Shown: positions 28,708 to 43,089 of the stretch, in pieces
Numbering within the stretch: position 1 is the first letter of the stretch
Layout of the letters: every line of letters begins with the position of its first letter
IMG/VR virus record: IMGVR_UViG_3300009182_000002
Coordinates: 1 to 64,000 of that record
Reading direction: 5' to 3' (one strand)
DNA: 64,000 nucleotides
DNA from: a virus
Position numbers and translations under genes: made by a program
Notes under the pieces: generated by a model
Databases searched by the model: none
Seen by the model: only the letters and a program-made list of their open reading frames with translations
Told to the model about the DNA's origin: nothing

Positions 28708-29223
28708 TCATTCGGTCCTCTCAGGGTGTGTGGTTCTTCTGGGAACCCATACTCCGGGGCTGAGGATGACACCGTAGTCGGCTGGGTCTCCGTGGTGGTT
28801 CTCCGTGACGTGCAGAAAATCCACGCCCTTCTGTCGTAGTGCGATGTTCCCTAGAGCCGCGTCGTGCAGGTAGGTCGAGACGCGAGGGTTCGCTTCTCGA
28901 AACTGTCTCCCGAGACGCTCTAGATGCCTGTGCGTGACGCTCATCGGAAAAGTCGGGCCTACATGACCGCTCTGGACTGCTGGATCGTCGTGAGTGCCGT
29001 CGGTGATGTCGAGAGCGTGGTCAATGGCGCTCTCGTGATCGCCGAAGACGTAGAACCCCGGTCCCTGCGTCTGAGGGTTGTCTGTGAAGGTAGCCCGCGC
29101 TCCCTTGGATCTGATACTCCTATCCCCTCTGACTGTGGTCCCGTGATGCCACTCGCGGTCGTTGACCTCATCAAATAGGCGGCTGCTGTAGTGAGCATCC
29201 TCAAACTCTTCGTTGCGGCTCAT
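28708..29223 (-). CDS. ADP-ribosyltransferase-like protein
   Basis: 171 residues. WHHGTTVRGDRSIRSKGAR followed by GPGFYVFGDHESAIDHALD has the layout of the ART/PARP-like fold (HGT strand, then GxGFYV...A..hA). The C-terminal DYGVILSPGVWVPR could supply the last strand. No clear catalytic glutamate can be assigned by eye. In phages ARTs modify host proteins or act as virion-delivered effectors. Overlaps the ParB-like gene by four bases. Confidence 0.5.
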   Translation of the reverse strand: MSRNEEFEDAHYSSRLFDEVNDREWHHGTTVRGDRSIRSKGARATFTDNPQTQGPGFYVFGDHESAIDHALDITDGTHDDPAVQSGHVGPTFPMSVTHRHLERLGRQFREANPRVSTYLHDAALGNIALRQKGVDFLHVTENHHGDPADYGVILSPGVWVPRRTTHPERTE

Positions 29224-29561
29224 CGGGGGGTCTCCATCGCTGGTATGTGCCGTAGCCCAAGTTGCAAGGCGGCGATAGCCCGGTGGTGGCCCTCGCGCAC
29301 TGCGTTTCCCCGGACGAGAATTGGCGTCAGCACACCGTTCTGGGAGATGTCGCCCTTGAGAGCCTCGATGTAGTTGTCAGGACCGCCATGGGCATGGTCG
29401 TTGCTATGGACCTTGTCAGGATCTCCGCCGCTTGCTTCCCAGTTGGCGCGCATGGCGTCGAGAGCCTCATCCATGTGAACGCCGCCGTACTCATCCGAAA
29501 CCATGTCCCGTAGGTGGCTAACAGGGAGATCAAACTGGACGCCGAGTGCTCGGTGGCTCAT
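29220..29561 (-). CDS. ParB/sulfiredoxin-like domain protein
   Basis: 113 residues. The C-terminal half (ISQNGVLTPILVRGNAVREG followed by HHRAIAALQLGLRHIP) is the ParB N-terminal-domain pattern including the GxHR-like nucleotide-binding motif (EGHHRAIAA). Stand-alone ParB-like domains in phages can act as CTPases or nucleases. Between a membrane protein and the ART-like gene with ATGA overlaps on both sides. Confidence 0.72.
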   Translation of the reverse strand: MSHRALGVQFDLPVSHLRDMVSDEYGGVHMDEALDAMRANWEASGGDPDKVHSNDHAHGGPDNYIEALKGDISQNGVLTPILVRGNAVREGHHRAIAALQLGLRHIPAMETPR

Positions 29562-29770
29562 GTCTTACGCCCCGGCTGAAGAACATGCGCGACCCACCAA
29601 ACGCACCCAGCAACGAGTGCGGCTCGGGTTACGTGGTTGCGGTCGAACAACAGCCGTGCGTGAGCAGACAACGTGGCCTTCTCGTCGCCCGAACGCAGGC
29701 TTGCCATCTCCAAAGCCAACGCGGCAGCCGATACAGCACACCAGCCTGCGGTGTAGTGGTTGGTGCTCAC
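29558..29770 (-). CDS. small membrane-associated protein
   Basis: 70 residues with two moderately hydrophobic segments (AGWCAVSAAALALEMASL and RAALVAGCVWWVAHVL). ATGA overlaps on both sides place it in the same translational unit as the ParB-like and paralogue genes. Function unknown. Confidence 0.5.
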   Translation of the reverse strand: MSTNHYTAGWCAVSAAALALEMASLRSGDEKATLSAHARLLFDRNHVTRAALVAGCVWWVAHVLQPGRKT

Positions 29771-30564
29771 TGCCCCTCCCGGGCCTTCTTCGACTCGGCC
29801 AGCCGCTGCCGCAGGAACTGACTGCCAATCATCGGATCAACCTCGGTGACCGGATGGGGACCCGTGGTAGCACCGCGCATACGCGCATCCGTGTAACGCT
29901 CAGAGGTCGTGCGGATGTGATGGCGCTCCAAGGCGACGACCTCGCTGGGGAAGTCGCGGTCGGACTCACGGTCAAGGCTGTTGGAAGGCTTCGACTCCGG
30001 ATTCTCTGGATTCGGGTCGATCACTCCGTGCTTGACAAGGCGCTGCACGATCCGCGAGGAGTCCTTGCTAAGGGATGCGTCGGGCATCGGCATGACCCCG
30101 TAGCGCCGCATCGACTCATGGCCCGCGAGGCCCAAAACTGATGGGACAAGGTGTGACTCTCCGACGGTTGACGCCAGTACACCAAGGGTTGGGGCCTTCG
30201 CTGGCTCCTCTGGGGCCACATCGAACAAGGTGGTCTGGTACGCCCGACGACCGCCAGTGTGGTTGTTCTCCCACTCGGATTGGGTGAGCATCTCTGGACG
30301 GCTCAAGGAAATGCCACTGCCTGCCTTCGTGCCTTTCACACCGGGGGCAAAGATCCTCTCGTCGGTGCCCTGATTGCGGGTGTTGACTACTGCCCTTTCT
30401 GGGAGGGCAGCACGACCGCCCTTGAGGGTTGCAACGGCACCTAGGGGTTGGGTGGAGTTGTGGTGGATGGCACTGAGGGTGAGTCCTTCGAGTTCCTCAC
30501 CGTTGACATCCCTATGGTGACTCTCCCGCATTCTGTACTTGTAGGGGTTCTCAGTTGTTTCCAT
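29767..30564 (-). CDS. accessory protein, tandem paralogue copy 1
   Basis: 265 residues from the ATG at 30564 (AGAAGG upstream). Nearly every block has a counterpart in the next gene: LTLSAIHHN/LTVSALHRD, YQTTLFDVAP/SQGTLFDYAP, LGVLASTVGESHLVPSVLG, a RIVQRLVKHG helix and a C-terminal DPMIGSQFLRQRL. The QTTLF segment resembles a sliding-clamp-binding motif (QxxLF). No known family; the pair arose by tandem duplication. Confidence 0.6.
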   Translation of the reverse strand: METTENPYKYRMRESHHRDVNGEELEGLTLSAIHHNSTQPLGAVATLKGGRAALPERAVVNTRNQGTDERIFAPGVKGTKAGSGISLSRPEMLTQSEWENNHTGGRRAYQTTLFDVAPEEPAKAPTLGVLASTVGESHLVPSVLGLAGHESMRRYGVMPMPDASLSKDSSRIVQRLVKHGVIDPNPENPESKPSNSLDRESDRDFPSEVVALERHHIRTTSERYTDARMRGATTGPHPVTEVDPMIGSQFLRQRLAESKKAREGQ

Positions 30565-31351
30565 CAGCGGCCTTCTGAGGCTGCTTCTTCGCCGCGACGA
30601 GACGCTCACGCAAGAACTGACTTCCAACCATCGGGTCAAGTTCTTTCAGGGTCGAGGAGTGTTGACCGTTTTCTGTGTATGTGACGTTCTTCTTCTCCTG
30701 CGATACCGCGATATCTGACCACAACGATTCCCCTGTAATCCCTCTACCGACGCTGTTGTTAGGGAGGGACTCGGGATTGTTGGGGTTTGGCGAGAGCGCG
30801 CCGTGCTTGACAAGGCGTTGAACGATCTTGGCTGAGTCCCCGCTCAACGAATCATCGGGAATTGGTAGGTGCCCGTACCTGCTCAAGGACTCAAGACCGG
30901 CGTGACCCAAGACTGATGGGACTAGATGCGACGTTCCTTTGGTGGATGCGAGTATCTTTAGGACTGGTGCTTTGCTCTCTTGAGGAGGGGCGTAGTCGAA
31001 GAGCGTCCCTTGTGACATAGGAAGTCCATCATTGTGTCTACGTTCAAAATCGCCTTGTTTCTTGTTGGCCTTCTTGAAGTCTTCGTAGGAAGAGTCGTCA
31101 CCCAAGACCTTCTTCTTGGTGTCTTCATCAATCCAGATCTGCTCCGGAGTGCCGAAACCGTCCCAGTGATTACGCTCGGCCCTACCGTTGTGGGCCTCTC
31201 TTCCACCCTCCAGATGCGCCACCACACCAGTAGGTTCGTCTGGATCGCGGTGGAGAGCGCTGACGGTCAAGGTCTCGTCACCACCTGTGCTTGTCCCGTA
31301 ACTTCTCCCGTAACGAGCCTTCCAGCGGTAGTTGTTGTCAACTGTTTCCAT
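30551..31351 (-). CDS. accessory protein, tandem paralogue copy 2
   Basis: 266 residues, AAGGAG before the ATG. Paralogue of the downstream gene with matched blocks (KILASTKGTSHLVPSVLGHA, SAKIVQRLVKHGALSPNPN, ELDPMVGSQFLRERL) but diverged between them. Contains QGTLF in SQGTLFDYAPPQ. The last 14 bases overlap the next start. Function unknown. Confidence 0.6.
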   Translation of the reverse strand: METVDNNYRWKARYGRSYGTSTGGDETLTVSALHRDPDEPTGVVAHLEGGREAHNGRAERNHWDGFGTPEQIWIDEDTKKKVLGDDSSYEDFKKANKKQGDFERRHNDGLPMSQGTLFDYAPPQESKAPVLKILASTKGTSHLVPSVLGHAGLESLSRYGHLPIPDDSLSGDSAKIVQRLVKHGALSPNPNNPESLPNNSVGRGITGESLWSDIAVSQEKKNVTYTENGQHSSTLKELDPMVGSQFLRERLVAAKKQPQKAADGNN

Positions 31352-32168
31352 CGGTGATCTCCTTTTGCCCCTCTACCGCGTCGAACTGGGTGCTGAGATT
31401 GCGTCTGCGTGCGTAGGACCGGGAGAACCGACCAAGATTCCCCTCCGACTTCTGGTTCTCCTCGCTCGTGGTATCCCAGAACGACTTCCCGGCAGGCTCG
31501 GATCGACGGTCGTCGCGGTGGTGGATGTCTGCGTAGTCCTCAGCAGAGGCCTCTTTGGACGCCAGAGTGTCGGCATCCCACTGGGAACTGGTGCCAACCT
31601 GCTCCGCAGCCTCCGAAGGACCGGTTCCGGAGTCCCAGAGGCTCTGCCTCTTGTCGAGGACGGGGAGGTTCTCTGCGTGGTGCCCTAGGGCATGGATCAG
31701 TGCCCGGGAGCGCTCATTGCGGCTGGTGCCACTGCGGACAGTCACATGCAGCCGTGAGACCGGCAATTGCTCCTCAGAACCGTCCTTGAGCCGGTAACTG
31801 GCTGACTCCGTGTACTTTGCTGAAGGGTGAGGCTGTTCAGCCTCCATTCCCGGCTTGAACCAGCCGCTGACACCGGATTCGTTCACAGCGTCACTGGTGT
31901 TCCCTGCACGCACGATGTCGAGGTTTCGCAGGTCAGAGGCAGGGACAGTGGACCTAGCCACGTCCTCTTTCATCTGAGCGACCTCTTCAGGGTCACCGGA
32001 GAGCCTCTTGGTGCCCTCGATGGCCTCGCTAACCTCCCGCATCCGCTCAGGGTTGTATCCCCTCGGATACCTCTCGGAGTCCTGCATCCAGAAAGCAGGA
32101 CGTGCGAGCATCCCCTGATCCTCACCCGGGGCGAAGTAAGGCTCAGCAGCGTTCTTCTTCCGAGGCAA
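31338..32168 (-). CDS. hypothetical protein with degenerate zincin-like helix
   Basis: 276 residues from a TTG at 32168 with AGGAG nine bases upstream. Charged throughout. Around residues 138-165 LHVTVRSGTSRNERSRALIH then ALGHHAENL resembles the helix of metallopeptidases (HExxH), but the catalytic Glu position is Ala (HALGHH). It is the first gene of the minus-strand run, next to the divergent control region, so it is likely expressed from there. Confidence 0.5.
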   Translation of the reverse strand: MPRKKNAAEPYFAPGEDQGMLARPAFWMQDSERYPRGYNPERMREVSEAIEGTKRLSGDPEEVAQMKEDVARSTVPASDLRNLDIVRAGNTSDAVNESGVSGWFKPGMEAEQPHPSAKYTESASYRLKDGSEEQLPVSRLHVTVRSGTSRNERSRALIHALGHHAENLPVLDKRQSLWDSGTGPSEAAEQVGTSSQWDADTLASKEASAEDYADIHHRDDRRSEPAGKSFWDTTSEENQKSEGNLGRFSRSYARRRNLSTQFDAVEGQKEITDGNS

Positions 32169-32359
32169 GACAGGGCTCCTAGATAACGGAAGCCCTCCGC
32201 CACTCCAGTATCCAAGGGGACTGACACCCTAGAAAGCGTCAAATGTACAAGTTTTCCTTTTCCCCCTTAGCAACGTTGTAAAAGGGGATGTGACAAGATT
32301 TAGGAACTTTAGTTTTGGGTTCCATAGCAACGGGAGGGCCCAGATGCTCCAAGCAACGC

Positions 32360-32388
32360 TTGCTAGGGCCTTAGCAATTATTTTAAAG
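32360..32388 (+). promoter_or_regulatory. weak candidate plus-strand promoter
   Basis: TTGCTA at 32360 and TTAAAG at 32383 with a 17-base spacer, in the only A+T-rich patch of the divergent region. The match to consensus is modest and about 1.1 kb separates it from the first plus-strand gene, so this is only a candidate. Confidence 0.2.
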
Positions 32389-33396
32389 ATCGCTCGTCTC
32401 AACGAAGATTCTTGATCGAGAGCGAGTACAGCCCTCCCGCTCCCAAGTTCGGCACGCCATTTGGGCAACTGCCTGAGATTTCAAGGGCCACCTATGCCTG
32501 AGCACTGGCCCCGCGCTGGTGGCGCAAGCGCTTAAGGGTGGGCGGGTCGCTCTGGCTGGCAAGCCGTTAGCCACGCTAAGCAACGGAGCCCTGCCCGGAG
32601 GGCTTCGAGTCGCTCGAGCCCGCTCCGGGCCACTGCCTCGCGACGGGGTGGCGGCGTGGCGGTGCGGGCAGGCTTCGGGATGGTGGTCCGGTGCTGTGAG
32701 TAACCAGCAGCGCGCTGGTGGTGCTGGAGCGCTCACTGGCACCGGGCGAGGGGTCCGGCTTGCCAAGGTCTCAGAATGGCGCTGTGGGCTTGCTAGGGCC
32801 ATCCCAGCGTTGAGCCGGTCCGGTCTCAGCCCTTTCACAGCAGCGTGTTCCAGCGTTGGAAACTTCTTTGGTAACGGTTTGGTAACGAGGGCTGTTTACG
32901 GGAATGAACGCCTTGGCAACCGCGTTGTTGATCAAGCAACACGATCGACACGGCACCGCGCAGCGCAGGCCCCCGGCTCTCGGGGCGAGCCCCTCGCGAT
33001 GGCCACCACAGCGGGTGAGCGAGCGACCCTCGTACCTCCCAGCGCCACGACCACGGGCTGGGGAAGGGCGACGGTTAAGCAGCCGGACCCGTCCAAGGAG
33101 ACAACTCTGTCGTGCTTCGGTGCGGCAGACGGTCAACAGGGGCACGCCCCGGTCTCCAGATGAATCCGTTGACGTGTCCGGACCATCTGCCGGTCTACCC
33201 GTGAGTGACCGCGCCAAGAACAACCACGGGCCTACTGCATTGCCCATGAAGTGACCTGTGAAGCCCTTGTGGCTTCGCCGGGATTCCCGCCGTGTGCGGG
33301 GAGTGCCTGACACCCCAACGGAATGGCGGGGTGACCATGGGAGGCCAACAACTGTGGTGGGAGCGGGGTGGCCACGCCGCCCCGTTCCCCCACCAA

Positions 33397-33469
33397 GAGC
33401 CGCTGATGAACTGGTCATCGACGGTCGGCAGGCCACCGACCTGACGGGGTTCGACTCCCCGGTGGCTCA
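33397..33469 (+). tRNA. tRNA-like element (Ala GGC by position), unusual
   Basis: 73 bases with a 7-bp acceptor GAGCCGC/GTGGCTC (one G-T pair), an anticodon-like stem GTCGG/CCGAC with loop CAGGCCA, a 4-base variable region and a perfect T arm CGGGG-TTCGACT-CCCCG. The spacing between arms is that of a tRNA. Oddities: no U at the position before the anticodon, and a D arm that pairs only in a shifted register (GATG/CATC). It may be a divergent tRNA-Ala, a decayed tRNA or a tRNA mimic in the 5' leader of the plus operon. Confidence 0.4.
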
Positions 33470-33504
33470 CGCTCCATACCCACAACCAACCACTAGGAGA
33501 GCCC

Positions 33505-33747
33505 ATGTCCATTCCCACAACCAACCACGACGACCTGACCACGATGCTGGACGGGTCAGTGCAGGTCACCCTCACCCGCGCGGCAGTCGTTGACCTGCTG
33601 AGCGCGCTGGGACGTTCACTCACTGAGAACACCGGCGAGGTTCACATCGTCCTTGACGTGTGCGAACACCGCGCGTGGTTCGACGTGCGCGGTACGTCTG
33701 GCCGCATCGGCGGGGCAGTCACGCACTGCTACTGCGTCATCAACTAG
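33505..33747 (+). CDS. hypothetical protein, first gene of plus operon
   Basis: 80 residues (MSIPTTNHDDLTTMLDGSVQ...), with AGGAGAGCCC before the ATG. A helix-strand pattern (VTLTRAAVVDLLSALGRSLT, GEVHIVLDVCEHRAWFDVRG) suggests a small alpha/beta domain. It precedes the AAA ATPase gene. No family recognised. Confidence 0.6.
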   Translation: MSIPTTNHDDLTTMLDGSVQVTLTRAAVVDLLSALGRSLTENTGEVHIVLDVCEHRAWFDVRGTSGRIGGAVTHCYCVIN

Positions 33748-33752
33748 GCGAA

Positions 33753-33795
33753 ACAGGGCCATCGCGGCCCTGTCCACGGGGTTGGCATCCCCGTG
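33753..33795 (+). other. tandem hairpins between first gene and AAA ATPase
   Basis: Two adjacent perfect stem-loops: ACAGGGCC/GGCCCTGT with a 5-base loop (33753-33773) and CACGGGG/CCCCGTG with a 7-base loop TTGGCAT (33775-33795). No T tract follows, so a role in mRNA processing or translational control of the next gene is more likely than termination. Confidence 0.5.
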
Positions 33796-33831
33796 CTGAC
33801 GAGCCTGCCACCAACCTAGGAGAGTGAAGCC

Positions 33832-35280
33832 TTGACAACTGGACTGCCCACATTCGCCGCGCTGATTCGCAGCGCGCCGGGTCCTGACAACCGCTGGTGC
33901 GAGGTCCTCATCGTGAGGTCCTTCGACACCTTCTCACCGCTGCACGTTCCCGGCGTTGGACCAGCGCCGCTGTTCTACATCCGGAACACCGGGGGCGGTC
34001 GGGGACCGTCCAACGCATGGGTCGCCGTCACCGACGTTCCTGCTCAGGAGCGCGCTGCATGGTGCGGCAATGACCCTCTCGTCGTGCCGCTCACCACGCA
34101 CGACGTGACCGCAGTTGCTAGCGCTCGCAACTTGCCGCCCAAGTCGCTGCTCACGCGGCTCCAGTCGCGCATCGACCGCGTGCCGCTCAATCAAGCCGTT
34201 GGGCTAACCATTGGCAACGTCGTTGACGCTCTGGTGCAGGCCACCGACGTGTTCGCCACGGTCGTGCCTGCTGCTCCCAAGGTCGCCCCGGCTCAGGTCG
34301 TGGTGGCCGCGCCGGTCATTCCTCAGGTGTCGGCCATCCCGGCTCCCGTGCTGACAGTGCCGGTTGCCAGCACGGCACCGGTTGCCAGCGCTGGTCCCGT
34401 GGTCGTGCTTGACGACGACCAGCCCGACTCCGACGACGGCTCCGTCACGGTCGTCGTGCAGGACGGCGCGTGCCGCAAGGCCATCGTCCTGCCGCCGTCG
34501 TTCGCTGACTCGTACATCCACCGTGCGGTGTTCGGAGTCGATGACTTCACGGTGCTGGATGAGGCACGGGCCAAGGGCGACAGCGTCGGGCTGTACGGCC
34601 CCACGGGCTCTGCCAAGACCACCGTTGCCAAGGCTTACGCGGCAGCGCGCGGTCTCCCGTATGTGCAGGTCTCAGGCACCGCGACGATGGAAGAGTCGCG
34701 GATGTTCGGTCGCTGGATCGACCTTGGCCAGTGGCAGGACGGCGTCGTCAGCGAGGTGGTCCGCTACGGCGGTCTACTCATCCTTGACGAGATCAACATG
34801 CTCCCGCCGAACATCAGCGCGAGCCTGTTCCCGCTGCTTCGCGAGCGGGTCCTCACCCTGCACGACAAGGACGGCGAGACCATCACCGCCCACCCGTCGC
34901 TGATCGTCATCGCGACGTGGAACCCGAACTACTCCGGTACGCGCGAACTGAACGCCGCGCTCGCCAACCGGTTCGGGGTGCAGGTTGAGTGGGGCTACGA
35001 CGACCGTGTTGAGAAGGCGCTTGGCATCTGCAACAGCCTTCGCGCTGCTGCTGGTCGCCTTCGTGCCAGCGAGGTCAAGGGCGAGGTCAGCGCCCCCTGC
35101 CCGACCAACGCGCTGGTTGACTTCCAGCACTACGCCGGTCGGCTGGGGCTGGACTTCGCGGTTGGCAACTTCGTCGCCCGGTACCACGACGATGTTGAGC
35201 GCAAGGCCGTGCAGGCCGTGTTCGACACCTTCCGTTCCAGCATCGAAAACGAGTTGGGGCTGGCTCAGGCAACCGTCTGA
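33832..35280 (+). CDS. MoxR/CobS-like AAA+ ATPase
   Basis: 482 residues from a TTG after AGGAGAGTGAAGCC. The first 140 residues and a Pro/Val/Ala linker (about 145-195) are specific to this protein. The AAA+ domain has Walker A GPTGSAKT (256-263), Walker B LLILDE (315-320), sensor-1 ATWNPNY (361-367) and the conserved ELNAALANRF. This is the MoxR/CobS clade, whose members remodel partners together with VWA proteins. The next two genes encode a metallopeptidase and a VWA protein, so a three-part chaperone-protease machine is inferred. I do not call it cobalt chelatase. Confidence 0.85.
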   Translation: MTTGLPTFAALIRSAPGPDNRWCEVLIVRSFDTFSPLHVPGVGPAPLFYIRNTGGGRGPSNAWVAVTDVPAQERAAWCGNDPLVVPLTTHDVTAVASARNLPPKSLLTRLQSRIDRVPLNQAVGLTIGNVVDALVQATDVFATVVPAAPKVAPAQVVVAAPVIPQVSAIPAPVLTVPVASTAPVASAGPVVVLDDDQPDSDDGSVTVVVQDGACRKAIVLPPSFADSYIHRAVFGVDDFTVLDEARAKGDSVGLYGPTGSAKTTVAKAYAAARGLPYVQVSGTATMEESRMFGRWIDLGQWQDGVVSEVVRYGGLLILDEINMLPPNISASLFPLLRERVLTLHDKDGETITAHPSLIVIATWNPNYSGTRELNAALANRFGVQVEWGYDDRVEKALGICNSLRAAAGRLRASEVKGEVSAPCPTNALVDFQHYAGRLGLDFAVGNFVARYHDDVERKAVQAVFDTFRSSIENELGLAQATV

Positions 35281-35344
35281 GCCAGCACCAGCACCACCTA
35301 GCAAGCCCTACCAACCACTACCAACCTCTAGGAGAGCGATCACC

Positions 35345-36271
35345 TTGGCAATCACTTCACCCCTCACCGCCGACCGCTTGCTTGGCCCCGGCGCTGAACG
35401 TGGCGAGCGGCTCGCACGCCTCGCCGCCATCTTCACCAAGTCCAACAGCATCCTGTCCGGTCAGTCGGTCAAGGTGCGTATTGAGACCAACGACTGGGCT
35501 TGCCCACCGGCCCCGGCATGGTCCGATGGCCAGAACATCTGGTTCAAGGGCAGCGACATTCGTGACGCTGACTTCGACTCCATCGTCAACCTGTACGGTC
35601 TCAACTACCACGAACTGGGCCACATCCTGTGGACACCCCGTCAGTCGCACCCGCTGGCGACTTGGGCTTGGCGCAACCGTCACTGGTCCACGATGAACCT
35701 CTTGGAAGACCAGCGCATCGAAACGGCGATGACCCGCCGCTGGCCTTCGACGGCACCGTGGCTCACCGCGTGCGTCCTGCGCTGGGTGCTGGCCGACCCC
35801 AAGACCCTCAGCACGTCCTACCTGCTGCTGCGTGGTCGTCGCTTCCTCCCGGCTGACGTGCGCGGACTGTCACGTCAGGCCTTCGAGCGTCAGGACCTGC
35901 TCCCTGAGGTTGACCGCATCGTTGACGCCTACCGGGAACTGCGCTTCCCAGAGAAGCCCAACCTGCGCCGCGTATCGGAGCGCAACCTGTACGACCGTGC
36001 TCAGGCGCTGATCACCGACTACAGCGCGCTGATTGCCAGCCTTAACAACCAGCCCACGTCGTCGCCTAACCACGGCAACGACGAGACATCACCGGTAACC
36101 AACGGCTACCCAGCGCCTCACGATCCCAATGAGGCCAACACCGACGACCAGTACGACGACGAGCCCCAGCCCGGTCAGGGTAGCGACGGGGACCAGAACG
36201 ACCAGCACGACGACACCAACGACAGCGGCGCGGGCACCCCGTGCTGCTCCTGCGACGGAGGCAGCCACTGA
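35345..36271 (+). CDS. HExxH metallopeptidase of the MoxR-VWA system
   Basis: 308 residues from a TTG at 35345, ten bases after AGGAGAG; an open frame continues upstream inside the ATPase gene but is not used. LNYHELGHILW (zinc motif HELGH at 89-93) with a downstream NLLEDQRIE (E121 as possible third ligand) is a zincin active site, like the N-terminal putative metallopeptidase part of DUF2201/VWA proteins. The C-terminal 70 residues are acidic and Asp/Asn/Gln-rich, ending PCCSCDGGSH. It shares one base with the next start. Confidence 0.72.
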   Translation: MAITSPLTADRLLGPGAERGERLARLAAIFTKSNSILSGQSVKVRIETNDWACPPAPAWSDGQNIWFKGSDIRDADFDSIVNLYGLNYHELGHILWTPRQSHPLATWAWRNRHWSTMNLLEDQRIETAMTRRWPSTAPWLTACVLRWVLADPKTLSTSYLLLRGRRFLPADVRGLSRQAFERQDLLPEVDRIVDAYRELRFPEKPNLRRVSERNLYDRAQALITDYSALIASLNNQPTSSPNHGNDETSPVTNGYPAPHDPNEANTDDQYDDEPQPGQGSDGDQNDQHDDTNDSGAGTPCCSCDGGSH

Positions 36272-37464
36272 TGAACGACGACACCATGCCCAACACAAGC
36301 GCCTGCTCCTGCGGTTGCCACGGTCCTGCCGCTGGCAACGAGCCTGCCAACGACCAGCCGGGTGGCTCTGGCAACGAGCCGGGTCAGCCCCAGCCCGGCA
36401 ACGAGCCGGGTCGGCCCGGCAACGGCGACCAGCCCGGCGACCAGCCCGGCGAGGGCGAGGGTCAGGGCGAGGGCGACCAGCCCGGTGAGTCCGACGGCGG
36501 CGGCGCGAACGGCGGCGCTGGCTCCGACGGCGAGACCGGGCTGGACGGCGGCGAGGCCAACGGTGCTGGCACCGGGGTTACCAACGCCCCCGACATTGCC
36601 AAGGCCTTGCAAGACGCTGCTAGCAAGGCTCTCGACAACATCACCAACGACGTCGATATCGCTGGCGAGGCCAGCAGCGCTGTCAACGCTGTTGTCAAGG
36701 GCGGCGGTCACGTCCAGATCCTGCGCGACTCCCGCTTCGACACCTTCGCCCCCAGCGACGAGGCTCGCCTCGCTGAGCGCCGCGCGGTGCGGGAGTTCAA
36801 CACCCTCCGCGCAGACGCTGAGGAGGGCTGGGACCGCGCCCGTCCGCAGGGTCGGCTGAACGTCGGTCGCTACATCTCTAGCAACGGGGACCTTGACGTG
36901 GCCTTCGACCAGTGGCGTGACCGCAAGGGTGACGCCTCCGACCTTGAGGTTGTGCTACTGCTGGACGACTCAATGTCCATGGCTTCCTACCGCGTGGTCA
37001 GCGCGGAGGCCATGTGGGTACTCAAGCGTGGCCTTGACGCCATCGGTGCCAACACCACGGTGGTCATGTTCCACTCCGAGTCCCGCGTCCTGTACAAGCC
37101 GACCGACAAGGCTGAGGCGGGTCGCCTCCGCTGCTCAACTGAGAGCGGCGGCACTGACCCCAGCGAGGGCATCGCTCAGGCGGCGCGCATCTTCGCCGGG
37201 AGCCGCAAGGGTCAGAAGGTGCTGATCACCATCACCGATGGCGACTACTGGGGTGAGTCTGTCCCTGCCAACTGCGACTACAACATTGACGACATTGTCA
37301 AGGCCATGACCAACAGCGGCGTCGTCACTGCTCAGGTCCTGTTCAACCACGCGAGCGAGCAGACTCACGGGCACGCGATCAGCACTCAGGTCTCGCAGGT
37401 TGAGGAGATCGCGTCCTTTGCCAAGGAACTTGTCAAGGCTGCTATCAAGTCTCGCCAGCGCTAG
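36271..37464 (+). CDS. VWA-domain protein of the MoxR system (CobT-like)
   Basis: 397 residues. Cys-rich N-terminus (ACSCGCHG), then about 80 residues of Gly/Pro/Glu/Asp low complexity, a helical region (105-200) and a VWA domain with a complete MIDAS: D232-x-S234-x-S236 (LLDDSMSMAS), T295 (GGTDPS) and D323 (ITDGD). MIDAS proteins bind Mg2+ and a target acidic residue and act with MoxR ATPases. The start overlaps the metallopeptidase stop (TGATG), as if one fused protein had been split. A strong terminator follows directly. Confidence 0.82.
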   Translation: MNDDTMPNTSACSCGCHGPAAGNEPANDQPGGSGNEPGQPQPGNEPGRPGNGDQPGDQPGEGEGQGEGDQPGESDGGGANGGAGSDGETGLDGGEANGAGTGVTNAPDIAKALQDAASKALDNITNDVDIAGEASSAVNAVVKGGGHVQILRDSRFDTFAPSDEARLAERRAVREFNTLRADAEEGWDRARPQGRLNVGRYISSNGDLDVAFDQWRDRKGDASDLEVVLLLDDSMSMASYRVVSAEAMWVLKRGLDAIGANTTVVMFHSESRVLYKPTDKAEAGRLRCSTESGGTDPSEGIAQAARIFAGSRKGQKVLITITDGDYWGESVPANCDYNIDDIVKAMTNSGVVTAQVLFNHASEQTHGHAISTQVSQVEEIASFAKELVKAAIKSRQR

Positions 37465-37473
37465 CAACGGGCT

Positions 37474-37506
37474 AACCCAGCAGGCCCCAAAGGGGCCTGC
37501 TGGGTT
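37474..37506 (+). terminator. strong hairpin after the MoxR-VWA triad
   Basis: A 15-bp perfect stem (AACCCAGCAGGCCCC and its complement) with loop AAA, followed by GCTTCCC. It probably separates the triad message from the small-protein genes beyond. Confidence 0.8.
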
Positions 37507-37534
37507 GCTTCCCAACACAAGCAATTACCAACCC

Positions 37535-37578
37535 CAGCGCGACTAGCAGCCACCCCGGTGCAAGGCCGGGGCGCGCAC
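37535..37578 (+). repeat. 44-bp structured leader repeat, copy 1
   Basis: Identical over 44 bp to 38595-38638. It folds as GCGCG, an 11-base bulge, CCCCGG, 7-base loop TGCAAGG, CCGGGG, CGCGC. It lies 39 bases before the start at 37617. Probable cis-acting RNA or operator element. Confidence 0.85.
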
Positions 37579-37616
37579 TGGTGCGACGAGCGCACCTAGC
37601 AACGAGAGGAATGCCA

Positions 37617-37808
37617 ATGCCCGAGATCAACGCCACCTACACCGTCGATGTTGACGGCACCCTTCACATCACACACCGCGAGTGCGGCGTCGTTCAAGAA
37701 GTCAAGCCGGTGCGCGAGTTCGCTGACGGCACCTGCTCGTTCGGTTCCGATGCCGACGTGTGCCTCGCCTGCGAGAACGAGGGTCGCCCGGCGACCCTCA
37801 ACTACTAG
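37617..37808 (+). CDS. small zinc-binding protein downstream of leader repeat 1
   Basis: 63 residues (MPEINATYTVDVDGTLHITH...) from the second of two ATGs, six bases after GAGAGGA. Cysteines at ECGVV, TCSF and CLAC, with nearby His, could form a zinc site. The 44-bp repeat in its 5' leader suggests shared regulation with the gene at 38684. Unknown function. Confidence 0.6.
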   Translation: MPEINATYTVDVDGTLHITHRECGVVQEVKPVREFADGTCSFGSDADVCLACENEGRPATLNY

Positions 37809-37819
37809 GGGGCTGGCTC

Positions 37820-37957
37820 ATGCTGCACAGCGCACGATCCCGAGCCCACCACGGCCATCGCGGTTGCTACTGCTGCGACTGGCCCGTAAGCAACCGCACA
37901 CTTCGCCAGCGCGAGAGGCGCGCTTGGCAACGACAGATTGAGAGGGAGTACGCATGA
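37820..37957 (+). CDS. small basic Cys-containing protein
   Basis: 45 residues (MLHSARSRAHHGHRGCYCCD...) with AGGGGG upstream. CYCC followed by an Arg-rich helix (RQRERRAWQRQIEREYA) is a combination seen in many actinophage small genes. ATGA overlap with the next gene. Possibly nucleic-acid binding. Confidence 0.55.
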   Translation: MLHSARSRAHHGHRGCYCCDWPVSNRTLRQRERRAWQRQIEREYA

Positions 37958-38199
37958 CCCACATCCCGGCGCAGGACGCCAACAACGCAACCGTCATCCG
38001 GTTGCTTGAGGAGATCGCCTCGCTTCAAGCAACCATCGACTCGCTCATCCCACGCGAGGACCCCGAGGTTCGGGCCGAGCGTTACCGCACCACGGCGAGC
38101 GACCGCTTCCAGTACAGCGACGGCGCTGACGCTGTCGGCTTCCATCTTGAGCGCATGTCCGCGCCCGACTACGACCCCTACTACGACGAGAGGTACTGA
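37954..38199 (+). CDS. hypothetical acidic protein
   Basis: 81 residues; N-terminal helix with leucine spacing (VIRLLEEIASLQATIDSLIP) suggests a short coiled coil, C-terminus Asp/Tyr-rich (SAPDYDPYYDERY). GAGAGGGAG upstream. No family recognised. Confidence 0.6.
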   Translation: MTHIPAQDANNATVIRLLEEIASLQATIDSLIPREDPEVRAERYRTTASDRFQYSDGADAVGFHLERMSAPDYDPYYDERY

Positions 38200-38201
38200 C
38201 C

Positions 38202-38513
38202 ATGACCACGATCACCATCACCATCCCGACCGACCTCGCAGACGCCATCGCAGATGCGCTGACCAAGTGCGTGCTGCGGGCCAGCGCTGACGCTGAACGG
38301 ACTGTCGCAGGGCCAGCGTACGAGCGAGCAGAAGAGGCAACCCGGTACTTCGGGGACGCGCTCGTCGCCTTCAACTACGCCCGCGACATTGACCCTCTAG
38401 CGCGAGAGTGCGGGGCATGCGGTGCGGAGTCAGGCGAGGACTGCCGGTGGCACTGCACCGCGCGGCCCGACGATGACAACGTGCCCAACACAAGCAATCT
38501 CATCGACGCTTAG
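38202..38513 (+). CDS. hypothetical protein with Cys cluster
   Basis: 103 residues. First half: beta strand and helix (TTITITIPTDLADAIADALT); second half: CGACGAESGEDCRWHC, a four-cysteine zinc cluster widespread in actinophage small proteins. Two bases separate it from the preceding gene. Confidence 0.6.
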   Translation: MTTITITIPTDLADAIADALTKCVLRASADAERTVAGPAYERAEEATRYFGDALVAFNYARDIDPLARECGACGAESGEDCRWHCTARPDDDNVPNTSNLIDA

Positions 38514-38594
38514 GGCTTGGCTTACCCACTGCGGTTGTCCAAGAATGTTGTCGGAGGCAGGAATACCAAGATCAACTAAGGGTGTTGCCACACT

Positions 38595-38638
38595 CAGCGC
38601 GACTAGCAGCCACCCCGGTGCAAGGCCGGGGCGCGCAC
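38595..38638 (+). repeat. 44-bp structured leader repeat, copy 2
   Basis: Exact copy of 37535-37578, 46 bases before the start at 38684. The flanking DNA on both sides is unrelated between the two copies, so the element itself is conserved. Confidence 0.85.
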
Positions 38639-38683
38639 GCTCACGACGAACCGTTCGTCGTATGTAGCCAAAGGAGGGCCAAC

Positions 38684-38968
38684 ATGGCCGAGTACATCTT
38701 CATTGAGGAAGAACCGCAGGTTAGTTCAGGACCACGCCTCAACCACCAGCAGGTCACGCTCGCGCGTCGTGTGCGTGACGCAGGCGGCTGGGTTGCCGTC
38801 ATTCGCTTCGACAAGAAGTCGGCGGCGAACGTCGCGGCCTCCCGCATCCGTCGCGGCAACGCGGCGTCGTGGGCGTACGTCGGCACCTTCGACACCAAGG
38901 TCGGCCAGCGCCCCGGCGAGTCCGAGTGGACCGTCTACGCGCTCTACACCGGAGAGGCAAGCAACTGA
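38684..38968 (+). CDS. hypothetical protein, GWVAV paralogue A
   Basis: 94 residues with AAAGGAGG before the ATG. The core (GGWVAVIRFDKKSAANVAAS, WAYVGTFDTKV, EWTVYALY) is matched in the product at 40284-40616 (DGWVAVLEY, WNSVGTFDATV, TVKVYARC), so the two are paralogues of a small alpha/beta domain. It has the 44-bp leader repeat; the paralogue does not. Confidence 0.65.
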   Translation: MAEYIFIEEEPQVSSGPRLNHQQVTLARRVRDAGGWVAVIRFDKKSAANVAASRIRRGNAASWAYVGTFDTKVGQRPGESEWTVYALYTGEASN

Positions 38969-39489
38969 TGACTACCACCAACCAACCCACCGTTGACGAG
39001 CAGCGCGCACAGGTCTTGGCTGACAACCCCGGCCTTGACAAGGCGTTGACAACCAACCACCACATCGTTGAGGACATCTCCGCCCGCTTCGCTGCGACCG
39101 GTCGCCTTTCCGAGAAGCAGATCGCGCTCGTCTTCAAACTCGCCAAGCAAGACGCTGCCGCTAAGCAGCGTGAGGCTGAGCGCGAGGTAGCAGACATGCT
39201 GGTCCGCGAGTCTGGCATCACCATCACCCCCGGCAAGCAGGTCATCTTCGGAAGCGTCGTGTCTCTCAACCTGAAGGACAGCGGCTTCGGCCCGACGTGG
39301 AAGATGATCGTTGAGCACCCCAGCGGTCTGAAGTACTGGGGCACCGTCCCTAGCAACCTCGTCGGTGCTCTTGCCAAGGGTGATCAAGTTGAGTTCACCG
39401 CAACCGTGTCGGTCTCCGACAACGATCCAAAACCCATCTTCGGGTTCTACAAGCGCCCGACCAACGCCGCACTTATCAAGTCGGCCTGA
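38968..39489 (+). CDS. putative OB-fold protein
   Basis: 173 residues; ATG shares a base with the upstream stop. The N-terminal half is helical (SEKQIALVFKLAKQDAAAKQ) and the C-terminal half is a beta barrel (VIFGSVVSLNLKDSGFGPTW, KYWGTVPSNL, DQVEFTATVSVSDNDPKPIF, GFYKRP), as in actinophage proteins that may bind single-stranded nucleic acid. No enzymatic motif. Confidence 0.55.
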   Translation: MTTTNQPTVDEQRAQVLADNPGLDKALTTNHHIVEDISARFAATGRLSEKQIALVFKLAKQDAAAKQREAEREVADMLVRESGITITPGKQVIFGSVVSLNLKDSGFGPTWKMIVEHPSGLKYWGTVPSNLVGALAKGDQVEFTATVSVSDNDPKPIFGFYKRPTNAALIKSA

Positions 39490-39505
39490 CAAGGAGGAAC
39501 ACAGA

Positions 39506-39859
39506 ATGATTGACAAGAAGCAGGTAGTGATTCCAATTACCGTTGATGCCGCCGAGTTCTGGTCGGCCATCTTCGGAGCCGAGCCGTTCATCTGGCCATG
39601 GTGGGTCAAGGTGGACTACGCCGAGGGCTGCGACTGGGAGACCCCCGGCGAGGTCACCATCACCGTCGCTGACCCCGACGACGCTGAGGACAGCACGACC
39701 AAGACCCTCACGCTTGAGGATCTTGTCGCCGCGTACCTCATCGCGCTGGAGCAGTATCCGCGTTCTGTTGGCGTCGGCTGGGAGACCCCCGACTTCGACT
39801 CTGAGAGCAGCGACCTCATCCTCCAGATCGCAGTGCAGGGTGAGGTGGTGTTCGGATGA
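39506..39859 (+). CDS. hypothetical acidic protein
   Basis: 117 residues, AAGGAGG upstream. Contains an aromatic segment (FIWPWWVKVDYAEGCDWE) and acidic strands (VTITVADPDDAEDS). The overall charge is strongly negative, so DNA mimicry is conceivable but unproven. Confidence 0.6.
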   Translation: MIDKKQVVIPITVDAAEFWSAIFGAEPFIWPWWVKVDYAEGCDWETPGEVTITVADPDDAEDSTTKTLTLEDLVAAYLIALEQYPRSVGVGWETPDFDSESSDLILQIAVQGEVVFG

Positions 39860-39978
39860 GCATCTGCCAATGGTTCGCCTTGTGCGACCGAGAGGCCACG
39901 CAGTCTGTCCCTCACCCCGTGCTGGGTGATGTCCCGACGTGCGACCGCTGCGCGTCGTTCGCCAATGGGGGTGCCTGA
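39856..39978 (+). CDS. tiny zinc-ribbon protein
   Basis: 40 residues (MSICQWFALCDREATQSVPH...), with C-x5-C and CDRC later. This CQWFALCDR...LGDVPTCDRC layout is typical of actinophage and actinobacterial small zinc proteins. ATGA overlap with the gene before it. Confidence 0.65.
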   Translation: MSICQWFALCDREATQSVPHPVLGDVPTCDRCASFANGGA

Positions 39979-39979
39979 C

Positions 39980-40123
39980 ATGGAGCAGGTCATCAACATC
40001 GACTTCACAGACCTTGACGACGCTTACCACAAGATCGTCAAGTTGCTAGTAGACAACGGAATGGTTGACCGGGAGGCGCGCGTTTCGGCGCGCTTCCTGC
40101 TCGCCGGAGTGGAGGACAAGTGA
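39980..40123 (+). CDS. hypothetical small helical protein
   Basis: 47 residues (MEQVINIDFTDLDDAYHKIV...), all helical after the first strand. The ATG is one base after the preceding stop; the stop overlaps the next GTG. Unknown. Confidence 0.55.
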   Translation: MEQVINIDFTDLDDAYHKIVKLLVDNGMVDREARVSARFLLAGVEDK

Positions 40124-40281
40124 GACTCACAACCCGAGGCTGGGTCTGCCTGTGGACGTTGGTATGCGTGCTTGCTATCGCTGTCAACGCTGCTTTCGCA
40201 GACAAGCAGGTCGAGTGCCGCGTCGAGAACCTCTCGACATGCCACATAACAACAACCGCTAACAACATCGGAGGCAACTAA
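40120..40281 (+). CDS. small secreted or signal-anchored protein
   Basis: 53 residues from a GTG (GTGA overlap). Residues 5-25 form a signal-like hydrophobic stretch (TRGWVCLWTLVCVLAIAVNA then AFA), with a possible signal-peptidase site after AFA. The short exported part has two cysteines (ECRVENLSTC) that could pair outside the cell. Confidence 0.55.
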   Translation: MRLTTRGWVCLWTLVCVLAIAVNAAFADKQVECRVENLSTCHITTTANNIGGN

Positions 40282-40283
40282 CA

Positions 40284-40616
40284 ATGACTGTCAAGCACAT
40301 CTTTGAAGTCGGCGACCCGACGTCCAACACAAGCGCATCAATCTTCGCTCTCAACCAAGAGACCATCCAAACAGCAGAGCGAGTGGCCGCAGCCGATGGC
40401 TGGGTGGCTGTGCTGGAGTACCCCGAGCCTGAGCGCAGTACGGCAGCAACCACAGCGCACCGGATCAAGCACGGCAAGAGCGCCGCGTGGAACAGCGTGG
40501 GCACCTTTGACGCCACAGTGCGGAAGACCAACTGGGGAACCGTGAAGGTCTACGCACGCTGCATCACTCGCTGGAGTGATCGTGATGACCCTTCAATCGC
40601 ACCATGGGATAGGTGA
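40284..40616 (+). CDS. hypothetical protein, GWVAV paralogue B
   Basis: 110 residues. Shares the GWVAV...AAW...VGTFD core with the protein at 38684-38968, with an extra C-terminal tail. A GGAGG lies 12 bases upstream. Unknown role. Confidence 0.62.
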   Translation: MTVKHIFEVGDPTSNTSASIFALNQETIQTAERVAAADGWVAVLEYPEPERSTAATTAHRIKHGKSAAWNSVGTFDATVRKTNWGTVKVYARCITRWSDRDDPSIAPWDR

Positions 40617-40623
40617 TGTACCG

Positions 40624-41043
40624 ATGCAGACATTCCTGCCGTACGCAGACTTCGTTGACAGCGCCAAGGTGCTAGACAGACAACGCCTTGGCAAGCAACG
40701 AGTTGAGGCCTACCAGATTCTTCGCACGCTTCGGGGTGAGTCCAACGGCTGGTCTCATCACCCGGCAACCCGCATGTGGAAGGAACACACTCAAGCGCTC
40801 GCCGCGTATGGGTTCGTAGTGTGCAGCGAGTGGATAGCCCGTGGTTATAAAGACAACCTGCGTCTCTACTTCGCGCAGCGTCTGGCGCAGCCCAAGGCTC
40901 TTGTCATGCCTGAGTGGTTAGGTGATGAGGCTTTCCACCTGTCACACCAGAGCAACCTCGTTCGTAAAGACCCGCAGCACTACGGCGCGTTCTTCCCTGA
41001 CGTACCGTCTGACCTTCCCTATGTCTGGCCCATCTGGGCCTGA
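40624..41043 (+). CDS. pyrimidine-dimer glycosylase-like (MSMEG_6728-type) protein
   Basis: 139 residues. MQTFLPYADFVDSAKVLDRQ and RLGKQRVEAYQILRTLRGES and GWSHHPATRMWKEH are diagnostic of the MSMEG_6728 family, related in fold to T4-type pyrimidine-dimer DNA glycosylase. A repair function is therefore possible, but many members are uncharacterised. Start at the ATG that begins the conserved block. Confidence 0.75.
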   Translation: MQTFLPYADFVDSAKVLDRQRLGKQRVEAYQILRTLRGESNGWSHHPATRMWKEHTQALAAYGFVVCSEWIARGYKDNLRLYFAQRLAQPKALVMPEWLGDEAFHLSHQSNLVRKDPQHYGAFFPDVPSDLPYVWPIWA

Positions 41044-41138
41044 CGCGCACCACCAGCCGTGAAGTAGGGGCAACAAGGCCCTGACGCCACACCGCTCGCA
41101 GGAGAGGGCACGGCAACGATCCCTTAGGAGGGGACAGC

Positions 41139-41579
41139 ATGGAGACAACCATCTACAACGGCCCTGCCCGATTCATTGGATACCGTGGTCGCGAGTGCAA
41201 GACCGACCGCATCCGCGAGGTCGTGATCCAACTGTCTGACGGCACGCTCCACACCGAGTACTTCTGTGAGCAGTGCGACTATCGCGCGGCTAAGTCCGCG
41301 TCGGTGCGCGGTCACTTGTCGCTGCACCCACTGCCGGGTAAGCCCCGCAGTGGCCGTCCTGTCGGGTCGCGCAAGCGCTCGCGCCACAGCGACGAGGTCA
41401 ACGAGGCGATTGAGCGCGAGATCGCTCGTCGTGTTGAGCGAGAGTTGCAGCGCGGTGCAAGCAAGCGCTCGCTGGAGCGAGAGGTTGCTAGGCAGAGGTT
41501 GGCGGAGGTTCGCCGCGAGAACCGCGAACTTCGCAAGCGCCTCAAGAACATCCGGGCAGCCATCGTTGGCAACGTTTAG
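41139..41579 (+). CDS. C2H2-finger protein with basic coiled coil
   Basis: 146 residues, AGGAGG upstream. A C2H2-type finger (FCEQCDYRAAKSASVRGHLS then LH) is followed by a basic linker (SGRPVGSRKRSRHSD) and a long Arg/Glu coiled coil (about 88-140). This looks like a dimeric DNA-binding regulator. Confidence 0.7.
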   Translation: METTIYNGPARFIGYRGRECKTDRIREVVIQLSDGTLHTEYFCEQCDYRAAKSASVRGHLSLHPLPGKPRSGRPVGSRKRSRHSDEVNEAIEREIARRVERELQRGASKRSLEREVARQRLAEVRRENRELRKRLKNIRAAIVGNV

Positions 41580-41600
41580 CAATTCCTAACAACAGGCGTG

Positions 41601-41624
41601 GCCCCGGCCTGACACCTACGGGGC
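41601..41624 (+). other. intergenic hairpin
   Basis: GCCCCG/CGGGGC with a 12-base loop in the 109-base gap after the C2H2 gene. No T tract; possible weak terminator or mRNA-stabilising structure. Confidence 0.4.
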
Positions 41625-41688
41625 ACTTCCGAATGTCAGACCCATCTGCAACACTTCGTTCACACCTAACACCTTGGAGGGGAATCCG

Positions 41689-41865
41689 GTGGATCACACC
41701 ATCAACGTCGGAAAGACCAGCAAGTGGGAGACAACGCACGCCTACCGCATGCGTTGCTCATGCGGAGCAGCGTCCTACGTCCACACGCGCAAAGACGCTA
41801 ACAAAAGCGCGCGCGAACATCTCGCTCATGTTGAGAAGCGCGCTGCTGCCGAGGTGAAGCCATGA
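41689..41865 (+). CDS. small zinc-binding protein
   Basis: 58 residues from a GTG after GGAGGGG. MRCSCGAAS and later His residues (AREHLAHVEK) give a probable zinc site. ATGA overlap with the next gene. Confidence 0.55.
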   Translation: MDHTINVGKTSKWETTHAYRMRCSCGAASYVHTRKDANKSAREHLAHVEKRAAAEVKP

Positions 41866-42035
41866 AGGTTTGCCCAGAGTGCAGCGGGCGCGGCTATCAC
41901 TACATGCCGGGCCCAACTCCTGACGACATTGACGCCGAGGGTTGCCAAGACTGTCGTGGCACCGGCATCCAGTTTCTAACCACTAACCGTATTGCACCGC
42001 CCGTTGATTACGACCCCGATGAAAAGGAGGACTAG
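41862..42035 (+). CDS. DnaJ-type zinc-finger small protein
   Basis: 57 residues with two CxxCxGxG-like units: VCPECSGRGYH at 3-13 and CQDCRGTG. This is the DnaJ cysteine-rich repeat, often found alone in phage proteins. It may hold zinc and bind unfolded peptides or nucleic acid. Confidence 0.6.
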   Translation: MKVCPECSGRGYHYMPGPTPDDIDAEGCQDCRGTGIQFLTTNRIAPPVDYDPDEKED

Positions 42036-42039
42036 CACC

Positions 42040-42378
42040 ATGCACGATGAAGACACCGAGTTTGAACCGACTGCTTACGAGATTGTGCATTGCATGCACG
42101 AGGACAACGAGCCAGTTGTTCACCTGACGCTGTCTTACGCCGAGGTCAGTCTCATTGCCATGGCGTTGACAGAGTTCGTTCCCGGCGAGATTGAGCGCGC
42201 CCGCCTTCAATTCCTCAAGAGCGACGACCCATCGCTCAAGGCTTCGCTCTGCCGCATCGCGGGGTACGGAGAAGCCGCCCTCATTCAATGGCAGGAGATG
42301 GAGGAGGTCATGGCTGAGCCGATGGCCGAGTACATCGACTGGCATGAGTGGACGCATGAGATGGAGGCCGAGGCGTGA
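42040..42378 (+). CDS. hypothetical acidic helical protein
   Basis: 112 residues, AAGGAGG upstream. Strand-helix start (YEIVHCMHEDNEPVVHLTLS) then acidic helices (EMEEVMAEPMAEYIDWHEWT). ATGA overlap with the WhiB gene, so it is co-translated with it. Confidence 0.55.
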   Translation: MHDEDTEFEPTAYEIVHCMHEDNEPVVHLTLSYAEVSLIAMALTEFVPGEIERARLQFLKSDDPSLKASLCRIAGYGEAALIQWQEMEEVMAEPMAEYIDWHEWTHEMEAEA

Positions 42379-42617
42379 ACGCCCCGTCCTTCGACGGCTC
42401 CCAGCCGTGCGCGCAGTCGGGTGGGGACTCATGGTTCCCCGATGACAACTCGTCTTTCACGACAGAGAACAGGATCGCCGCTGCTCTCTGCCAGACATGT
42501 CAGTTCAGAGTTCCTTGCTTGGAGTACGCCGTTGCTAACAACGTCGATGGCATCTGGGGAGGCACCACCCGCAATGACCGAAACGCTATTAAGCGGCAAA
42601 GGCGAGGTTCCGCATGA
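42375..42617 (+). CDS. WhiB-like transcription regulator
   Basis: 80 residues. Four cysteines C12, C39, C42, C48 (CQTC then VPCLEYA) to hold an iron-sulfur cluster, followed by the GIWGGTT turn and a basic end (RNDRNAIKRQRRGSA), all as in WhiB proteins. Phage WhiBs can compete with host WhiBs for the housekeeping sigma factor. A second copy lies at 60391-60702. Confidence 0.9.
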   Translation: MNAPSFDGSQPCAQSGGDSWFPDDNSSFTTENRIAAALCQTCQFRVPCLEYAVANNVDGIWGGTTRNDRNAIKRQRRGSA

Positions 42618-42913: not shown

Positions 42914-43089
42914 CCGATCCCTATCCGCCACCGCCTCGCAAGAGAGGTGACCCGGTCACCCGTCTTGGTTGGTGCGTTGATAACCACCACGACGAATGCC
43001 CGGTGAAGGCGGGTAGGGATCAAGAGTGGGTGTGCGAGTGTCCTTGCCATCCCGTTGCCAAGAAGAAGAAGACCCGGAAGACCGGCTAG
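42910..43089 (+). CDS. small Cys/His protein
   Basis: 59 residues (MTDPYPPPPRKRGDPVTRLG...) with WCVDNHHDECPV and CECPCHPV, then a lysine tail (AKKKKTRKTG). Zinc binding likely; widespread type in actinophages. Confidence 0.55.
   Translation: MTDPYPPPPRKRGDPVTRLGWCVDNHHDECPVKAGRDQEWVCECPCHPVAKKKKTRKTG

Follow-up and report, generated by a model that had tools for sequence, protein, structure and literature searches.

A single-copy three-block element in the divergent non-coding gap of a freshwater actinophage: a candidate early control region

Genome context of the divergent gap

The window (the whole stretch of DNA that was analysed, 64,000 nucleotides) covers the opening 64 kb of an IMG/VR virus record of 97,729 bp. 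The virus is a contractile-tailed actinophage from freshwater. A contractile tail is indicated by the genes for a tail sheath and baseplate, and the terminase is 52–54% identical to those of the Streptomyces phages BRock, LuckySocke, Alone3, pSt2308 and GiJojo. Relatives of the capsid protein number more than 590 in viral contigs; the top 80 are 77–83% identical to it. According to a simple gene caller, the minus strand of the record carries 81.0 kb of genes and the plus strand 9.2 kb, nearly all of the latter within the single block 33505–43461. This block diverges from the leftward genes at the gap studied here. The main features are:

32169–33504, no strand assigned: divergent non-coding region and putative control region (no coding-like ORF; longest intergenic gap; gene map)
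32231–32330, no strand assigned: A+T-rich patch, 61% A+T in 100 bp (composition scan)
33505–33747, plus strand: 80-aa ORF that starts the rightward operon, without family match
33832–35280, plus strand: gene for an AAA_5/MoxR-type ATPase (PF07728, E 6e-22; phrog_249)
36271–37464, plus strand: gene for a VWA-domain protein, CobT-like partner (PF13519; gene order as in Gordonia phages)

A preliminary description of this DNA had called the gap the longest in the window and placed it between oppositely transcribed blocks. It is indeed bounded by leftward ORFs on one side and the rightward operon on the other and, at 1,336 bp, is the longest intergenic gap of the entire 97.7-kb record; the next real gap is 344 bp long, and an apparent gap of 884 bp at 63999–64882 is an artefact of joining separately called stretches. 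None of the ORFs of at least 40 aa within it has coding-like codons: their per-codon score is 0.002 or less, the yardstick being 0.07, the 5th percentile of 94 called genes.

The gap and the features reported for it are real, but several of them are not special to it. Its left part is A+T-rich and its right part G+C-rich, the latter as had been stated. The A+T-rich patch, described as the only one nearby, has the highest A+T content in the 31–35 kb interval, but equally high patches lie at 8081 and 23331. The 13-bp direct repeat is present at 32358 and 32788; with up to two mismatches allowed, however, there are four matches against 1.7 expected. The nested inverted repeats attributed to the region do not amount to an enrichment (four 7-mers against 3.9 expected, one 8-mer against 1.2).

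When the AAA and VWA proteins were the sole queries, no close relatives were found; these were recovered with the capsid protein. Just left of the gap, two adjacent paralogous ORFs without family match are encoded on the minus strand (29767–30564 and 30551–31351), beside a third ORF (31338–32168) that is 18–22% identical to them. There is a ParB_N-like ORF at 29220–29561. Farther to the right, a queuine tRNA-ribosyltransferase-like protein (45849–47411, minus strand; phrog_887, E 4e-47) is encoded next to a ribonucleotide reductase gene; we presume that it may be a DpdA-type enzyme, involved in 7-deazaguanine in phage DNA.

The three-block element

The gap contains an element, some 79 bp long and oriented towards the rightward genes, with the layout GGCYACTGCC ... 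CTGG ... TTAAGGGTRGGG. In consensus form it reads GGCNACTGCC, about 30 nt, CTGG, about 23 nt and TTAAGGGTRGG. This genome has a single copy, at 32464–32542, accompanied by a second copy of block 1:

32464–32473, plus strand: block 1, GGCAACTGCC, one change from GGCYACTGCC, a block found in the divergent gap of all five relatives that have both the capsid and the AAA gene
32505–32508, plus strand: middle block CTGG, offset +37 from the A of ACTGCC, as in the consensus of 33 non-redundant elements
32532–32543, plus strand: block 3, TTAAGGGTGGGC, one change from TTAAGGGTRGGG, then GGG; spacing 68
32628–32637, plus strand: second copy of block 1, GGCCACTGCC, exact and in the same direction (pattern match)

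The start-to-start spacing of blocks 1 and 3 is 68 in the window, 68 in the relative G031 and 69 in G029. In a third relative, G034, block 3 starts 81 nt after the better block 1 copy, or 69 nt after a second, imperfect copy identified by eye. The consensus of the 33 non-redundant elements consists of TTnGGCTACTGCCT, a C at +37 (85%) opening CTGG, and then TTAAGGGTGGGGGG; the CTGG of the window falls exactly at the consensus offset. CTGG or CTGC occurs near the middle position in 50 of 57 elements, a count made without a control, with near-duplicates included and the window left out.

The joint pattern is highly specific. It matches once in the 97.7-kb record, in the gap and on the plus strand, and once each in G029 and G031. 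There is no match in BRock, Cantare or four Gordonia phages, none of the reversed pattern in nine records, and none of the joint pattern in 200 dinucleotide shuffles of the genome.

The repeat GGCNACTG, found in the window at 32464 and 32628, is oriented around the element. Within 700 bp of it, in a total of 49,421 b, 30 extra copies are forward and five reverse; the remaining DNA of these loci, 330,847 b or 6.7 times as much, has 32 forward and 19 reverse copies. These counts come from 37 sequences of related loci and are not independent. The preliminary description had thus anticipated the right kind of feature, repeated sites, but with TAGCAAC in place of GGCYACTGCC as the repeat. We also considered whether GGC-YACU-GCC is a small hairpin acting as an RNA signal. 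By eye, the +200 copies lose the second arm of the hairpin, so a DNA site is likelier than an RNA signal. We found no printed description of the three-block element; the matches listed included no phage paper and no TTAAGGGTGGGG.

Distribution of the element in viral contigs and bacterial genomes

The DNA of the gap has no similarity in the phage collection or in 33 records with AAA relatives, and comparison with 27 capsid relatives gave only matches of 18–31 bp with E-values of 0.01 or worse. The AAA gene is also present in five of these 27 (capsid about 80% identical, AAA 41–47%). All five share the same layout, in which leftward genes and rightward genes are separated by a divergent gap of 353–585 bp, with GGCYACTGCC on the rightward strand. 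TTAAGGGTRGGG is present in three of them (G029, G031 and G034) and absent from G030 and G033.

A search of viral contigs with a looser pattern gave 65 loci with tightly grouped spacing, of which 14 were discarded by eye as chance matches and 51 kept; a stricter pattern was found in 46 viral contigs. Genes were called on both sides of the element in 36 of the 51 kept loci. In 30 of these the genes diverge and no ORF overlies the element, in one they diverge and an ORF call overlaps it, in four both flanking genes are on the minus strand and in one both are on the plus strand. Among the other 15 loci, five are too short and 10 have no gene call on one or both sides.

The element is also found in seven bacterial contigs, against about one expected by chance (a rough estimate). 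All seven records are labelled Actinobacteria, and one is a Bifidobacterium breve MAG. One copy has an HTH_17 gene on one side and a tyrosine integrase gene on the other, another lies near an HTH_17 gene and a gene for a superinfection-immunity-like protein, a third near a DarT-like protein and a fourth near a DUF520 gene; the gene setting of the seven copies is not uniformly divergent.

Three bacterial contigs (L262, L264 and L265) carry nearly the same element, with GTGTATGAATTA direct repeats around block 3 that could be integrase arm sites or iterons. Separately, the end of the gap in G029 (L186, about 2380–2460) contains, by eye, a hairpin of 12 bp that carries the canonical T-loop TTCAACT and resembles a tRNA minihelix.

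A genome-wide word, TTGNYAR

The preliminary description had singled out TAGCAAC-type copies in the left part of the gap. Copies of TAGCAAC or AGCAAC are present at 32269, 32326 and 32352, but they are a local sample of a word, TTGNYAR, that is spread over the whole record (for example at 32268, 32360, 32868 and 37595), on which ground we rejected them as iterons. The list of the genome's most over-represented 7- and 8-mers consists almost entirely of variants of this word or of its complement. Allowing at most one mismatch, we count 70 occurrences of CNTAGCAACG in the 64-kb window, where 13.1 would be expected. TTGCTAG occurs 50 times versus 8.6 (s.d. 3.0) in 60 shuffles that keep the proteins and the per-gene codon usage, and TTGGCAA 56 times versus 15.0 (s.d. 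3.5) in the same shuffles. Within genes there are 187 TTGNTAR sites versus 74 in synonymous-codon shuffles, none of 60 shuffles exceeding 96. Neighbouring sites at distances of 9–15 bp are in excess, as in one tandem in the gap:

32868–32885, plus strand: tandem TTTGGTAACG, two TTGNYAR copies 11 bp apart (repeat search)

The word is not enriched in 80 loci of capsid relatives (631 sites seen, 774 expected), and its enrichment in loci of AAA relatives never exceeds about 1.9-fold. An apparent 2.3-fold enrichment of TTGNTAR in one contig, L093, was based on two sites and was set aside, and AGCCCTCC repeats are at chance level. TTGNYAR may be bound by a protein, be a target of modification or act as a signal in recombination; its excess in this single phage is a puzzle separate from that of the gap.

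The leader and its predicted RNA features

About 960 non-coding bases separate block 3 from the first rightward ORF of the window. In 11 element contigs (L198, L201, L205, L209, L210, L222, L226, L231, L236, L246 and L248), our own gene caller likewise leaves about 1.0–1.6 kb uncalled before the first rightward gene. On the plus strand, 32505–33504 folds moderately better than its shuffles (z −2.98; 0 of 20 shuffles as stable); on the minus strand it does not (z −1.24; 3 of 20). Three local features stand out:

32325–32445, minus strand: three-way-junction-like fold with GGGAGGGC/GCCCTCCC as closing stem (z −3.47, 1 of 200 shuffles)
33354–33394, plus strand: long G+C hairpin just 5′ of the tRNA-like element (z −5.8, 0 of 200 shuffles)
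33397–33470, plus strand: tRNA-like cloverleaf, called by ARAGORN as tRNA-Ala (ggc) (z −2.74; minimum-energy fold)

The first of these, with a z of −2.09 on the plus strand, is possibly the leader of the leftward genes. The tRNA-like element had already been noted and is indeed present; when the gap is shuffled 3,000 times with its dinucleotides kept, ARAGORN reports a match in only one case. Transfer RNAs have U at position 33, and alanine tRNA has the pair G3–U70. The cloverleaf has a canonical T-loop and T-arm, but an A at position 33 and G–C at pair 3. It does not match RF00005 in Rfam, the best match in the clan being tRNA-Sec with 20.1 bits (cut-off 47). It is probably not a working tRNA; a decayed tRNA gene and a tRNA mimic, for example an RNase P signal, are both possible.

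A second conserved stretch, GGCTACTG ... ACCAG ... TGTTATCAG, is common to many of the long-leader loci. RNAalifold finds no consensus pair in this second domain among 11 related loci, a set that does not include the window. A sequence-only model built from the same 11 loci finds no copy in the window at an E-value of 5 with filters (best 3.3 bits unfiltered). A candidate picked by eye at 32647–32760 was missed by this model, and we make no claim for it. As there are no consensus pairs and the second domain is not found in the window, our claim of RNA structure is limited to the three local features. Rfam yields nothing above chance in the gap and nothing in 13 long-leader loci.

A predicted hammerhead ribozyme downstream of the gap

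One further RNA feature lies 240 nt outside the gap, ahead of the AAA gene, with its first base in the stop codon that ends the 80-aa ORF:

33746–33813, plus strand: type II hammerhead ribozyme (RF02276, 42.1 bits, cut-off 37)

By covariance model it belongs to an already known class, and self-cleavage is predicted after 33774. Stems I and III are closed and stem II is open; the GAAA and CUGANGA motifs and the cleavage-site C are present. A pseudoknot between loop I and the tail is reported for most type II hammerheads (PMC3088659). Here 4 bp are possible between loop I and the 3′ tail, and 10% of random loop/tail pairs equal that. No hammerhead above the cut-off occurs in the 33 other records of the AAA search or in any of the 27 capsid relatives. 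Judged by the relatives searched, it is therefore not a feature of the lineage, and processing by a ribozyme is no lineage rule.

Proposed function of the region

We propose, with a probability of roughly one half, that the gap is a divergent early control region and the element the promoter/operator of the rightward operon, giving a transcript that has a long leader and is cut by the ribozyme. The GGCNACTG blocks would be recognized by a DNA-binding protein of the host or of the phage, and transcription would start at or just 3′ of TTAAGGGTRGGG, so that the element launches the rightward operon through the long leader. From the known chemistry of the ribozyme, the hammerhead would cut this transcript after 33774 in vivo, separating the leader and the 80-aa ORF from the AAA/VWA message as distinct RNAs. 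We prefer a promoter/operator because the element always points to and precedes rightward genes, whether the leader is short (about 120–290 nt) or long. No sigma-70-like promoter (TTGACA/TATAAT-like hexamers 16–18 nt apart) and no terminator were found in 32000–33900. The missing sigma-70 match and the putative nature of the binding protein are the weakest points of the promoter reading. Further points against it are the loss of block 3 from two of the five close relatives, the failure to detect the second long-leader domain in the window, the mixed gene settings of the bacterial copies and the lack of the hammerhead in the other records searched. The control centre suggested by the preliminary description thus gains support from a single cis-element that occupies the same divergent position in related phages, but not from the TAGCAAC copies and inverted repeats then put forward, nor from the GC skew then named as a check.

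The main rival, to which we give a small but appreciable chance, is a replication origin, in which GGCNACTG would serve as iteron-like initiator sites, the A+T-rich patch would unwind, and the G-rich GGGTGGG of the non-template strand would favour a transcription-primed start. The element is consistent with this in being single-copy per genome, intergenic and flanked by oriented repeats with the A+T-rich patch on the left, and the bacterial copies in the neighbourhood of integrase and HTH_17 genes suggest that its function serves mobile elements of different kinds. However, there are just two or three GGCNACTG repeats per locus, with wide and variable spacing, and no replication-initiation gene was recognized beside the element, the neighbours being without family match. 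A skew minimum lying elsewhere had been named beforehand as the observation that would speak against a control centre or origin here. The cumulative GC skew in fact has a local maximum near 32 kb; its record-wide minimum is at the start of the record, with a local low near 72–76 kb, and it follows gene direction, which confounds any inference about an origin.

We regard it as rather unlikely that the product is instead the RNA fold itself, that is, a long structured non-coding RNA of about 1 kb with a tRNA-like end and a downstream ribozyme, like the large ornate phage RNAs. The stronger folding of the plus strand, the hairpin and cloverleaf at the 3′ end and the long uncalled leaders of the 11 element contigs are all in its favour, as is the well-supported structured RNA in the equivalent gap of Gordonia phages (see below). 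Set against this are the lack of a consensus pair in the second domain, the absence of Rfam matches above chance from the gap and the long-leader loci, and the fact that the Gordonia RNA has no sequence in common with this gap.

That the gap is an ordinary intergenic remnant, with an unremarkable A+T patch and repeats and a tRNA gene decayed from a tRNA-rich ancestor, agrees with the long array of tRNA genes that precedes the terminase gene in the cultured relative BRock, with the score of the tRNA-like element below the Rfam cut-off and with perfect inverted repeats at chance level. This reading is improbable, since it fails to account for the conserved element or for where it sits in the relatives. 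For the tRNA-like part by itself it may well be correct.

More speculatively, and in our view with the odds well against it, the element could be a control module, so far undescribed, that is passed between mobile DNAs associated with Actinobacteria. A common host protein would recognize it, and both lytic contractile-tailed phages and integrated elements would employ it to initiate either early transcription or replication primed by transcription; here it would drive a leader ending in a tRNA mimic and freed by the hammerhead.

The copies beside integrase and HTH_17 genes in bacteria suggest that unrelated mobile elements obey the same signal. From sequence alone, the element may identify the early control region of freshwater actinophages in a large, mostly uncultured group, and what had been a vaguely described long gap now offers a defined target of 79 bp for tests of promoter activity, protein binding and origin function.

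Comparison with known systems

Mycobacteriophage stoperators are many short sites dispersed over a phage genome. TTGNYAR resembles them as a set of many short sites scattered over this phage genome, but differs in comprising hundreds of degenerate sites that lie in genes and on both strands.

A gap of 403–1178 bp in five phages of Gordonia or Brevibacterium (GMA6, Chidiebere, UBSmoodge, DalanDe and Cantare) resembles the present one in preceding a rightward AAA block, and the block of GMA6 and DalanDe also has annotated VWA/CobT-like genes. Unlike the gap of the window, theirs has no match to the element; there is no DNA similarity between the two, and the right part of the gap in the Gordonia group is a structured RNA with covariation. 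With no DNA match, we do not consider the present gap a homologue of this RNA. A pattern derived from it matched six contigs, namely GMA6 itself and five apparent chance matches in coding sequence.

The Gordonia RNA is an observation in its own right. In the Chidiebere-type phages, about 800 nt in the right part of the gap resemble a large structured RNA (L004:6215–7044; also L006 and L081–L086). There are 222 predicted pairs, 99.8% of cells are paired and 11 pairs are changed on both sides. Cells changed on both sides number 29 versus 10.9 in shuffles (0 of 500 reach 29), while further pair types are no more frequent than in shuffles (481 of 500); the support comes from only two or three sequence clades. 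A promoter-like site lies upstream, and the RNA has no Rfam match.

The large ornate RNAs GOLLD and ROOL occupy long non-coding stretches of phage genomes with a tRNA-like element nearby. The present region likewise combines a long non-coding phage stretch with a tRNA-like element close by, but it matches no Rfam family, and the 11 related loci, the window not among them, yield no consensus structure with compensatory changes.

The predicted hammerhead shares with known type II hammerheads (RF02276; PMC3088659) the core and the form of stems I, II and III; a 4-bp pseudoknot between loop I and the tail may be present as well. Some phage type II hammerheads are likewise reported from an intergenic place in a phage operon (PMC3088659); the present one differs in its position between the 80-aa ORF and the AAA gene, 240 nt beyond the gap.
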